The notes under the pieces are model-generated. The model saw nothing but the letters and a program-made list of their open reading frames with translations. It was not told the DNA's origin and did no database searches. Position numbers and translations under genes: made by a program. From the NCBI GenBank assembly GCA_902595625.1, contig CACJQQ010000002.1, forward strand, positions 1-64,000: DNA of 64,000 bases, written 5' to 3'. Shown here piece after piece: positions 24,540 through 30,500 of this stretch. Each line of letters begins with the position of its first letter. Positions within the stretch are counted from its first letter, which is position 1. The DNA comes from an uncultured Pelagibacteraceae bacterium (GTDB lineage Bacteria > Pseudomonadota > Alphaproteobacteria > Pelagibacterales > Pelagibacteraceae).

Positions 24540-25204
24540 ATTTTACCGTAGTTCCTATTTATTTTTTTATATTTATTTATTATCTTAAATAAATCTTTTG
24601 GAGTAAAATCTGGCCACAATTTTTTTAAAAAAAATAGCTCGGTATAAGCCAATTGCCAAAGTAGAAAATTACTTAAACGTTGGTAACCTCCAGTTCTAAT
24701 TAAGATATCAGGATTTGGCAAATTTTTTGTGTATAAATTTCTTTCAAAATTTTTGATTGATATATTTTTTTTTGTTTTTTTCAAAGCTTGGATTATTTCA
24801 TTCTTTGAGCCATAATTAATTGCTAAATTTACAACTATTTTCTTATTTTTTTTTGTAAGTTTGGCAGATTTTTTTAATGTAAGTTTAATATCAGATGAAA
24901 ATTTATTTAATTCACCTAAAATATTTATTTTAATTCCCTGCTTTATTATATTTTTTATTTCTTTTGTAAAATAAGTGTTTATTAATTTGAATATATAATT
25001 TTTTTCATTTTTTGGTCTTTCCCAATTTTCAGAGGAAAAAACGTAAAAAGTTATTATTGGTATTTTCGATTTAATTGATGCGCCAACTATTTTTTTTACA
25101 GTTTCTACACCTTTTAAATGTCCGAAGTTTCTTCCTTTACCTCTTTTTTTTCCCCACCTGCCGTTTCCATCCATAATGAAAGCAACATGGCAAAGTTTGT
25201 TCAT
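24536..25204 (-). CDS. uppS: Isoprenyl transferase (undecaprenyl diphosphate synthase family)
   Basis: 222 aa; FIMDGNGRW, FSSENWERP, IRTGGYQRLSNFLLWQLAYTE. Confidence 0.94.
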   Translation of the reverse strand: MNKLCHVAFIMDGNGRWGKKRGKGRNFGHLKGVETVKKIVGASIKSKIPIITFYVFSSENWERPKNEKNYIFKLINTYFTKEIKNIIKQGIKINILGELNKFSSDIKLTLKKSAKLTKKNKKIVVNLAINYGSKNEIIQALKKTKKNISIKNFERNLYTKNLPNPDILIRTGGYQRLSNFLLWQLAYTELFFLKKLWPDFTPKDLFKIINKYKKINRNYGKI

Positions 25205-25761
25205 ATCTGAATGATCTCTTTTTCTTTTTCTGATAAGATTTTTTCTATATTTTCTATACTTGTATCCGTTAGTTTTTGGATCAATTTTTCATAGTTTTTA
25301 CTGTCATCCTCGGAAATAATTTTATCTTTAAGTTTTTTTTTTAGATCTTCGTTTGCTTCTCTCCTGATGTTTCTAATTGCAACTTTCCCTTTTTCGACCA
25401 TATTTTTTAATATTTTAATTAAGTCTTTTCTTCTTTCCTCTGTTAAATCTGGAATTCTTAATCTAATTATTTGTCCGTCTACTTGAGGATTAATTCCTAA
25501 TTCCGACTTTTGAATTGCTCCTTCTATCAAAGTTATATTTGATTTATCCCATACTTGAATAGAAATTAATCTTGCTTCAGGCACACTGATAGTTGCTAAT
25601 TGATCGACTGGCATTAGTTGCCCGTAAACATCAACTTTAATTGTATCAAGCATATTTGTATTAGCTCTACCAGTCCTTAGTGTAGCTATTTCTTTTTTCA
25701 GAGATTGAATACTTTTATCCATCTTAGATGAATAATTTTTCTCATTAAACTCACTGCTCAC
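25201..25761 (-). CDS. frr: Ribosome recycling factor
   Basis: 186 aa; LRTGRANTNMLD, VPEARLISIQVWD. Confidence 0.96.
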   Translation of the reverse strand: MSSEFNEKNYSSKMDKSIQSLKKEIATLRTGRANTNMLDTIKVDVYGQLMPVDQLATISVPEARLISIQVWDKSNITLIEGAIQKSELGINPQVDGQIIRLRIPDLTEERRKDLIKILKNMVEKGKVAIRNIRREANEDLKKKLKDKIISEDDSKNYEKLIQKLTDTSIENIEKILSEKEKEIIQI

Positions 25762-25763
25762 CC

Positions 25764-26627
25764 TTAAACTCCTTCTCCAACTTTATATCGAACAAAATCT
25801 AAAACTTTAAGTTGATTTTCAAATGAGTTTTCCTTAAGGATTTCTGAAACTTTTTTTTTAGGATCCATTATCCATAATTGGTTTAACAATGAGTTATCGT
25901 TTAAAAATTTGGATATTTTTCCTTTTGAAATTTTTTCTGCCATTTCTGCTGGTTTCCCTGAATTTGTGATTTCTGCTTTTATTATTTCTAATTCTTTACT
26001 AACTAAATTTTCATCTATGCCCTCTTTAGCTATGGCCAAAGGGTTTGATGCAGCAATGTGCATAGCCACTTTGTTTCCAATATCTCTATTTTCTTTTGAT
26101 ACGCCATCTAGCTTAACTAAGGAGATAATTTTTCCAATACCTTTCTCAATAGCTGAATGAACATAATAAAAATTAGTACCTTTAGAACAATCAAAAAATT
26201 TAGTTCTTCTGATTGTGATTTTTTCACCAATCTTTGCAATTAAATTTACTAAATTATCTTTTACTGGAGTCCCGTTAAGCATTTTTGCATCAACAAGTTT
26301 ATTAAGATCACCTTTATTAATAAAATTTAGGTCAGATAATTCCTTGCAAAAATTTATGAAGTCTTGATTTTTTGCAACAAAATCTGTTTCACTATTAATC
26401 TCTATTAAAGAAATATTTCCTTCATTTTCTTTTACTAGTGCCAAACCTTCTGATGCAGTTCTACTCATCTTTTTTGAAGCTTTAGCTATTCCTTTTTTTC
26501 TTAAAAACTCAATTGATTTTTCTAGATCTCCATTCGATTCGTCTAAAGCTACTTTACAATCTTTAAAGCCAACTCCAGTCATCTCTCTTAGTTTTTTAAT
26601 ACTATCTAGCAAATCTTTATTTGGCAT
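25764..26627 (-). CDS. tsf: Elongation factor Ts
   Basis: 287 aa; LREMTGVGFKDCKVAL, INSETDFVAKN. Confidence 0.96.
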   Translation of the reverse strand: MPNKDLLDSIKKLREMTGVGFKDCKVALDESNGDLEKSIEFLRKKGIAKASKKMSRTASEGLALVKENEGNISLIEINSETDFVAKNQDFINFCKELSDLNFINKGDLNKLVDAKMLNGTPVKDNLVNLIAKIGEKITIRRTKFFDCSKGTNFYYVHSAIEKGIGKIISLVKLDGVSKENRDIGNKVAMHIAASNPLAIAKEGIDENLVSKELEIIKAEITNSGKPAEMAEKISKGKISKFLNDNSLLNQLWIMDPKKKVSEILKENSFENQLKVLDFVRYKVGEGV

Positions 26628-26644: not shown

Positions 26645-27382
26645 TTATTTTTCTTTTACTTTGGATAATTTTTCTTCTGCTTTGTCAGGCCCTTTGATAT
26701 TTTTCTCTGCGTCTTTAATAGTGCTTTTTAAAAGTTCACAGTATAAATTTATAGATCTTCTTGCGTCATCGTTACCAGGTATTGGAAAATTTATTCCTGT
26801 TGGATCTGAATTAGTATCTAAAACAGCTATAATAGGTATTCCTAACTTTTTGGCTTCAGCTACTGCCAAAGACTCAACATTAGTGTCTATAATAAATATT
26901 AAATCCGGTGTTTTTTTCATTTCTGATATTCCGCCAAGAGATCTTTGAAGTTTTTCTTTTTCCTTACCAAATTTCAATATCTCTTTTTTTGTAAAACCTA
27001 AGTTTTCTTTGGACAGTTGGCTTTCTAATTTTTTTAATCTTTTTATTGAATTTTGTATTGTATTCCAATTTGTAAGCATTCCACCGAGCCATCGATAGTT
27101 TACATAATACTGGCCTGTTTCTTTAGCTAAATCACTAACTTGTTCCGAGGCTTGTTTTTTTGTAGAAACAACTAATAGTTTTCCTCCTGCAGCAATCACT
27201 TTGTGGACTTCCATTAACGCGTTCTTAATAAAATCAACTGTTTGAGTTAAATCTATAATGTGTATAGAATTTTTTTCCCCAAAAATATATTTTTTCATTT
27301 TTGGGTTCCACCTAAGCGTCTTATGACCAAGGTGTACTCCTGCTTCTAGTAATTGTTTTATATCAACTTTTGGTACGTTCAT
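26645..27382 (-). CDS. rpsB: 30S ribosomal protein S2
   Basis: 245 aa; [35 protein letters not shown]. Confidence 0.97.
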
Positions 27383-27389
27383 AATTTTT

Positions 27390-27455
27390 CCGGTTATTCC
27401 ACCACAGTTATTCCAAATTAATGGACCGGTAGGGCAATGCCCTTAAAACTGTGTG
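27390..27455 (-). promoter_or_regulatory. Structured rpsB 5' leader (candidate autoregulatory element)
   Basis: Three complementary helices: 27403-27409/27447-27453, 27431-27435/27439-27443, 27412-27415/27422-27425, plus possible pseudoknot 27425-27429/27390-27394. Confidence 0.6.
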
Positions 27456-27500
27456 CGTAATGTGAAAAGATATATACAATAACTTCAAAAAATCAACAGT

Positions 27501-30500
27501 CTAAACAGTTATTTTTTCGACGTTTTTCATGGCTTTTAAGGCTTTCAAATGGTTAAGATCAAAAAGTCTATTTTCTTTAAGTGAATAAAGAGCTTTTTTG
27601 TTTTTATCTTTAACAACTAAATTTATTTCCGTCTCACCCTTAACAGCCAACAGTTTTTTTACCTCATTCAAGTTATGATTCTCTTTCAGTTCTATAGTTA
27701 CTTTAGAATAAGGCTTGTTAATTACGTCTTCTAGATTAGTGATTTTTTTAACATTAATTCTTTTTTTTGTTGTTTCTCCAATAATTCTATCTTTTTGTAA
27801 AGTTAATACAAAGGACTCTGATTCCTTCAATCTTTCTCGGTTAGTTGTAAGAATTTCAGCAAATAAAAATAATTCAAATTCATTTTCTTTATCGCTTAAC
27901 TTTACTATTGCATATGGGGTGCCTTTTGCGCTTTTCTTTTCTTGAATTGACATAATAGTTCCAGCTACTAACCCTTCATTTACATCACTATCAAAGAATT
28001 GTTTGTAAGAAATTATATTTAGATGATTAAATATTTCATCAAATTCATTTAATGGGTGGTTAGTTAGATAAAAACCTAAAGATTTAAATTCTTCTGAAAG
28101 TAGCTCTTTTTGTGACCAAGGCTTAGATGACAAAAACTCAAATTCTTCTGGATTGTTCTCATCATTATCAAAAAGATTTGTTTGACGATTATCTTTATCA
28201 TCATTTATATTTTTAATCTTTTGTAAAATTTTTGGTATTGAATTTAAAAATTTATTTCTCTCAATATTAAATTCGTCAAAAACTCCTGCTTTAGCTAAAC
28301 CTTCTAATTGAAGCTTGTTTACGTCTTTTGAGCTGATTCTTTTTAAAAAGTTTGTAAAAGAAATAAATTTTCCATTTTTTTCTCGTTCATCTACTATATT
28401 TGATATAGCTTCGTAACCGACATTTTTAATTGCTCCTAATCCATAATAAAGTTTTCCTTCAACAGCTCTAAAATCAGAAAAACATTTGTTTATTGAGGGA
28501 TTAATTATTTTAATATTTAATTTTTTCAACTCCTCAACAAACTCTCTCAATTTAGATGTGTTTGTAAGCTCGGTTGACATAGTGGCTGCAATAAAATCTT
28601 CTTTATGGTATGTTTTAAGGTAAGCTGTTTGATAGGCAATCAAAGCATATGCTGCTGCATGACTTTTGTTAAAACCGTATTGAGCAAAAGGTTCTATCTT
28701 TGTAAAAACAAAATTTGCCACATCTTTTGCAATTCCGTTTTTAATAGCGCCATTAATAAATCGTTCTTTTTGTTTGTCTAACTCAGCTTTTTTCTTTTTG
28801 CCCATTGCCCTTCTTAATATATCTGCTTCTCCTGCAGTAAAACCTGCAAGAGTTTGTGCTATCTGCATTACTTGCTCTTGATAAATAATAATTCCGTAAG
28901 TTGGCTTTAAAATTTCTTTTAAAGTTGGATGAATATAATCTGGCTCTTTGTTTCCATTTTTACAATCATTATAAATAGGAATATTACTCATTGGACCCGG
29001 TCTATACAAAGCCACCAATGCAATTATGTCATCAAACTTATTTGGTTTCATTTGTTTAATTGCTTCTCTCATACCAGTGCTTTCAAGTTGAAATAGTCCA
29101 GTTGTTTCTCCTGTTGAAAGCAGGGAATAGACTTTTTCATCATTATGATTTATTTTGCTTATATCAAGATTTATATTTTTTAATTTTAACCTTTTAACAG
29201 TGTTATCAATAACTGTTAAAGTCTTAAGGCCAAGTAGGTCAAACTTTACTAAGCCTGCATTTTCTGAAGAGTACATGTCATACTGAGTTGATGGCAATAT
29301 AAGATTAGAATTGTGATCAATATACAGTGGAAATTGTTCGGCTAATTTTTCTCCAGCAATAACAACTCCAGCTGCATGTGTAGCCATATTACGATTTAGC
29401 CCTTCTAATTTTAAGGATAATTCTAAAAGTTTTTTAACCTTAATATTATTCTTTACTTCTTCTTTGAACCTAGGTTCTCTATCAATTGACTCTTGTAGTG
29501 TAAGAGGTCTTGAGGGGTCAAAGGGTACCATTTTACAAATTTTATCGACATGACCATATGAAAGTCCTAATACACGACCTACATCTCGCAAGACCATTCT
29601 AGCCTTTAATTTTCCAAAAGTAATTATGTGCGCCACTCCATTTTTATATTTTGATTTTAAGTACTCAAATACCAAATCCCTTTTTTCTTCACAAAAATCT
29701 ATATCAAAGTCTGGCATAGAAATTCTATCTGGATTTAAAAATCTTTCAAAAATTAAATCAAATTCAATTGGATCAAGATCAGTTATATCTAAACAATAGG
29801 CAACTAATGATCCAGCACCTGAACCTCGTCCAGGTCCTACAGGTATTAAATTATTTTTAGCCCATTTAATATAATCAGAAACTATTAAAAAATAGCTAGC
29901 ATAATCCATAGAATTAATAATGTTAATTTCATGTGATAATCTCTCTTCATAAATTTTGATAATCTGTTCTTTTGATTTAATTGTGCTTTTTTTTAGGATA
30001 AAATTGTCAATTCTATTTTCAAGACCTTTTCTTGCAAGCTTTGAAAGTTGCTCTTCGGGTGTATCGTTTTGATTGCTCGCGATAGAAGGTAAAATTGGTT
30101 TTGATTTTTTTGGCTTGAAATTAAATCTTAAATGAAAATTATAATTATTTTCTAAAGACTCAGGTATATCTGAATAAAGATTTTTAATTTCATTTTCTGA
30201 TTTTAAATAATGTTGATTGTTATATTTTAATCTATTTTTATCTTCTATAAAATTTTTTTCTCCTATACAAACTAAAGCATCATGAGCTTCATACATATCC
30301 TGATTCAAGTAAAATACTTCTTGAGTTGCAATTAATGGTATATTAAGTTTTTTTGAAATATTTAGTAAATAATTTTCAAAATTTTTTTCTTGATTTTCAT
30401 CATGTCGTTGAATCTCAATATACATCCTGTCTTTAAAATTATCTTTAAGGGAGTTAAGCAAAATTTCTAAATCTTTAAGTTTATTTTTAAAAAAAAGTTT

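Follow-up and report, generated by a model that had tools for sequence, protein, structure and literature searches.

The rpsB leader of a SAR11 bacterium is a copy of the known rpsB motif, with a pseudoknot that covaries across Proteobacteria

What is the RNA that lies between dnaE and rpsB-tsf in this SAR11 genome, and what might it do for the genes that follow? Within the window, by which we mean the whole stretch of 64,000 nucleotides that was analysed, dnaE ends at 27501 on the minus strand and rpsB starts at 27382. The host belongs to SAR11, its closest S2 proteins being those of Pelagibacteraceae single-cell genomes, at 92% identity or less. An original prediction had placed at this site a structured leader with several helices, a pseudoknot and a direct repeat, and a direct check found all of its strings and coordinates to be correct on the minus strand. 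The features, as they now stand, are collected in Table 1.

Table 1. Coordinates of the leader, its helices and the genes it precedes
Feature	Position	Strand	Remarks
Leader	27380-27457	-	CGC-A-CACAGTT-TTA-AGGGC-ATT-GCCCT-A-CCGGT-CCA-TTAATT-TGG-AAT-AACTGTG-GTG-GAATA-ACCGG-AAAAATT-ATG
P1, 5′ strand	27447..27457	-	CGC-A-CACAGTT, A27454 bulged; partner 27400-27409
P1, 3′ strand	27400..27409	-	AACTGTG-GTG; partner 27447..27457
P2 hairpin	27431..27443	-	AGGGC-ATT-GCCCT; AGGGC 27439-27443, GCCCT 27431-27435
P3 hairpin	27413..27424	-	CCA-TTAATT-TGG; 3 bp, double changes in all 3 pairs
Pseudoknot, 5′ strand (J2-3)	27425..27429	-	CCGGT; invariant in SAR11; predicted by 3′ strand type across Proteobacteria
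Pseudoknot, 3′ strand	27390..27394	-	ACCGG, 7 nt before ATG; invariant in SAR11
rpsB, ribosomal protein uS2 (regulated gene)	26645..27382	-	PF00318, E 1.3e-88; ATG 27380-27382
tsf, EF-Ts	25764..26627	-	PF00889, E 3.1e-60; 17 nt past rpsB stop

Downstream of the leader, the genes for S2, EF-Ts and ribosome recycling factor follow in this order, and tsf is probably co-transcribed with rpsB. The frr gene comes directly after tsf, 2 bases apart (25201-26627), and pyrH, which often lies between tsf and frr in other bacteria, is absent there. On the other side, a TATATA(T) box situated about 20 nt upstream of P1 (27460-27500) recurs, by eye, in the close relatives of the window. It is plausible as a -10 element, in which case the mRNA would start near P1; a scan of 27370-27620 for consensus sigma-70 promoters and terminators found none and did not pick up the TATATA box.

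The fold, as comparison shows it, is a three-way junction in which P2 and P3 are closed by P1; a pseudoknot joins the junction strand CCGGU to ACCGG, immediately 3′ of P1. Beyond the bulged A27454, P1 grows outward via CGC/GUG (27455-27457 with 27400-27402); the middle pair of this extension is poorly supported, being broken in 7 of 87 leaders. Computed without the pseudoknot, the fold energy was -21.1 kcal/mol versus -15.1 in shuffled sequences (z -1.93), a modest extra stability. The convincing support for the structure is comparative and does not come from folding energy.

Eighty SAR11 leaders were picked by their S2 protein alone, without regard to RNA structure, and the element was present in all 80 loci. 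On an alignment made by MAFFT only, hence unfitted to the structure, 49 double-changed cells were counted for the named structure, versus 13 in shuffles, and the covariation score was 0.114 versus 0.065 (reached in 0 of 500 shuffles), with lower values in all slid registers. On the structure-fitted alignment of 87 distinct leaders, which leans toward the structure, 94.3% of cells were paired, 13 pairs had double changes, and the score rose to 0.238, versus 0.104 when shuffled (0/500) and 0.077 at most when slid. Changes on both sides were seen in 5 of the 10 pairs of P1 (also on the MAFFT-only alignment), in all 5 pairs of P2, whose base pair nearest to the junction is A-U or G-C in a 37:37 ratio, and in 3/3 pairs of P3; the numbers refer to sequences and should not be taken as independent events. 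The A bulged in P1, at alignment position 4, is invariant. P1, P2 and P3 are helices supported by covariation within SAR11.

Compensatory changes across SAR11, on which the original prediction had hung its own refutation, are therefore present, and two of its helices stand as drawn, CACAGTT 27447-27453 with AACTGTG 27403-27409 (P1) and AGGGC-ATT-GCCCT (P2). Its third hairpin, TCCA 27422-27425 with TGGA 27412-27415, is real but one pair too long. Base 27425 had been used twice, in this hairpin and in CCGGT/ACCGG, and the alignments of relatives assign it to the latter: the pseudoknot U and its partner A do not vary, the base that follows the P3 3′ strand does, and the adjoining hairpin pair is often broken, so that P3 has 3 bp, CCA/TGG, and the pseudoknot 5. 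The 9-bp direct repeat TGGAATAAC (27393-27401 and 27407-27415), also listed as a feature, did not hold up. Not one of the 64 distinct SAR11 leaders examined has it twice, and 36 out of 5000 shuffles of this leader contained a 9-nt repeat. We do not accept it as a site for protein or RNA, since it is not conserved, and regard it as incidental.

In SAR11, both pseudoknot strands are identical in all 87 leaders. Without variation the pairing is not proved by SAR11 alone, and the question was therefore put to leaders from across the phylum. To locate the 3′ strand, we used its place behind the GGNGG block, together with its leading A. Of the distinct leaders compared, 148 from Alphaproteobacteria had ACCGG there and 26 from Gammaproteobacteria had ACCCC, which leaves 6 with ACCCG, ACCGA or ATCGG. 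All 148 leaders with ACCGG contained CCGGU, versus 1 of the 32 others, and all 26 with ACCCC contained GGGGU, versus 11 of the 154 others. Four leaders had ACCCG; one of them carried the exact complement CGGGU, and three UGGGU, with one G-U pair. The single ACCGA leader had UCGGU as its 5′ strand, and the single ATCGG leader had no exact 5-nt complement, CCGA giving a 4-bp match. In Gammaproteobacteria, where the 3′ strand is ACCCC or ACCCG, the 5′ strands match save for the G-U variants. We conclude that the predicted pseudoknot, which had been proposed to reach toward the initiation region and both strands of which are present here, covaries across Proteobacteria, as CCGGU/ACCGG in Alphaproteobacteria and as GGGGU/ACCCC in most gammaproteobacterial leaders examined.

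This architecture is already known, and a claim of novelty for it is unsupported. What lies here is the SAR11 version of the rpsB motif (RF01815 in Rfam), which Meyer et al. 2009 (PMC2704228) found in Cand. Pelagibacter ubique between dnaE and rpsB, with stems P1, P2 and P3 and a pseudoknot between J2-3 and a 3′ extension. The junction predicted here agrees stem for stem with it. SAR11 host, dnaE-rpsB intergenic position, P1/P2/P3 junction and J2-3 pseudoknot with a 3′ extension after P1 are all shared with the description in that paper, which differs in giving 3 and 2 bp for P2 and P3 of Cand. P. ubique, versus 5 and 3 bp here. The leader lies directly upstream of the S2 ORF (26645-27382, PF00318), and its CCGGT (27425-27429) and ACCGG (27390-27394) form the J2-3/3′-extension pair that covaries between classes.

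An Rfam search matched RF01815 to the full length of the leader, the GUGG.GGA.UAACCGG block included, with 30.1 bits and an E value of 1.5e-4. This is below the gathering cutoff of 40 bits, which is a threshold set by the curators and not a biological feature. All 121 genomes scored, G000 and 120 relatives, stayed below it. A genome with an rpsB start at 873284 and a leader at 873211-873286 scored 33.3 bits, also below the cutoff; judging from its coordinates, it is almost certainly HTCC1062, the strain in which the motif was discovered. Since the apparent founding genome itself falls short, a score below the cutoff does not exclude membership of RF01815, and the missing annotation in the window is a threshold effect, not a sign of novelty. 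The t44 RNA, or E. coli rpsB-tsf operator (RF00127), is alike in preceding rpsB and in carrying GUGGAGG..UAAC and a pseudoknot strand after P1. It differs in its pseudoknot letters, GGGGU/ACCCC, and in its Shine-Dalgarno sequence (SD), placed downstream of the pseudoknot, with 14-25 nt from pseudoknot to AUG in Gammaproteobacteria versus 4-10 in SAR11. With E values of up to 10 allowed, RF00127 did not match the leader in the window.

Prevalence within the order Pelagibacterales is quoted from a covariance model, R2, in which P3 is treated as 3 bp. It matched 132 of 148 genomes; of the 16 without a match, 3 had a divergent yet recognisable leader, and the assemblies of the other 13 gave no hit for rpsB. 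In the class, RF01815 matched 161 of 241 genomes, 65 of them above its cutoff. Among loci found by the Rfam model alone, rpsB followed in all 60 (30 SAR11, 30 from the class). In the divergent Pelagibacterales L204, L205 and L206, the leaders (about 1424-1503) read ACCGGAGAA..ATG, and an SD-like GGAG overlaps the 3′ strand of the pseudoknot.

The region between the pseudoknot and the start codon sets SAR11 apart. An SD-like AGG, GGA or GAG is found there in 47 of 50 leaders from other Alphaproteobacteria and 30 of 30 from Gammaproteobacteria, with median spacings to AUG of 17 and 18 nt respectively. In SAR11, 99 of 100 leaders have no downstream SD, and 4-10 nt (median 8) separate the pseudoknot from the AUG, so that its 3′ strand occupies the position of the SD. 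The main text of Meyer et al. 2009 (PMC2704228) contains no mention of Shine-Dalgarno sequences. In 3 divergent members of the order, the bases after ACCGG extend it to ACCGGAG, so that an SD overlaps the pseudoknot; the relative L202 retains AAGGA downstream. Together, the ACCGGAG members and L202 suggest that SD loss took place within the order. It may simply track a genome-wide trend, as SDs are hardly used in this SAR11 genome: AGGA, GGAG or GAGG at -20 to -4 precedes 9 of 55 window genes, versus 6.5 expected in shuffles (ORFs of at least 150 aa, start taken as the first ATG). The view that SD loss is peculiar to rpsB is weakened by this scant use.

What, then, would the leader do? In E. 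coli, excess uS2, aided by bS1, represses rpsB-tsf via the 5′UTR, an autoregulation established by experiment (review, PMC10931766). Experimental evidence for uS2 autoregulation was found for E. coli only, and for SAR11 bacteria we met with no study that tests either binding by uS2 or regulation. By analogy, uS2 autoregulation of rpsB-tsf is the likely function here. Our main reading, to which we give a probability of about 0.75, is that the leader is a cis-acting RNA of the rpsB-tsf mRNA, in which a uS2-stabilised pseudoknot fold would bar the 30S subunit and so bring about self-repression. Free uS2 in excess of ribosomes would bind and stabilise the pseudoknotted fold, the bound fold would deny the 30S subunit access to the start site, and uS2 would thereby repress its own translation and, through coupling, that of tsf. 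With a pseudoknot strand at the SD position, direct competition with initiation would be the simplest step in SAR11, and such occlusion is plausible from the layout of the leader. A more specific proposal, tentative and in our view somewhat short of an even bet, is that most Pelagibacterales lost the SD 3′ of the pseudoknot, that ACCGG plus A or GA became the ribosome-entry site, and that the leader could either form the uS2-stabilised pseudoknot or bind the 30S subunit, but not both.

Simple occlusion may nevertheless not be the mechanism, since the E. coli operator reportedly leaves out the SD and start codon, and its action depends on a distant bulge and on bS1 (PMC10931766). The leader could accordingly be a uS2-responsive operator that works without occlusion by the pseudoknot, the ribosome-binding site being outside it and uS2 with bS1 blocking a later step of initiation or altering mRNA stability. 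These E. coli data, and the conservation of the bulged A of P1 in SAR11 as well, speak for such an operator, but in SAR11 4-10 nt lie between the end of the pseudoknot strand and the AUG, which puts this strand inside the 30S footprint, and we consider such an operator unlikely.

A conserved fold might also chiefly help initiation or mRNA stability, for instance as a bS1-dependent standby site or enhancer in an SD-poor genome, instead of sensing uS2. Scant SD use in the window and a leader devoid of a separate SD would fit; yet the fold is the same in front of rpsB throughout Alpha- and Gammaproteobacteria, which do have SDs, and autoregulation has been demonstrated in E. coli (PMC10931766), which leaves this improbable. 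As for the helices being chance complementarity in an intergenic region, the z of just -1.93 for the fold without pseudoknot speaks for it, but covariation in three helices within SAR11 refutes it, pseudoknot covariation across classes and the published motif also stand against it, and its probability is practically negligible.

The published regulatory RNA is hereby confirmed outside Pelagibacter, in another genus of SAR11, with stronger comparative support, in particular for the pseudoknot, and SAR11 copies of the rpsB motif are shown to be lost at the Rfam cutoff. If the fused pseudoknot and ribosome-entry site is functional, SAR11 would present a minimal form of S2 control and offer a handle on the mechanism of repression. 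Mutual exclusion of the uS2-stabilised pseudoknot and the 30S subunit, if true, would be a more direct switch than that of E. coli.
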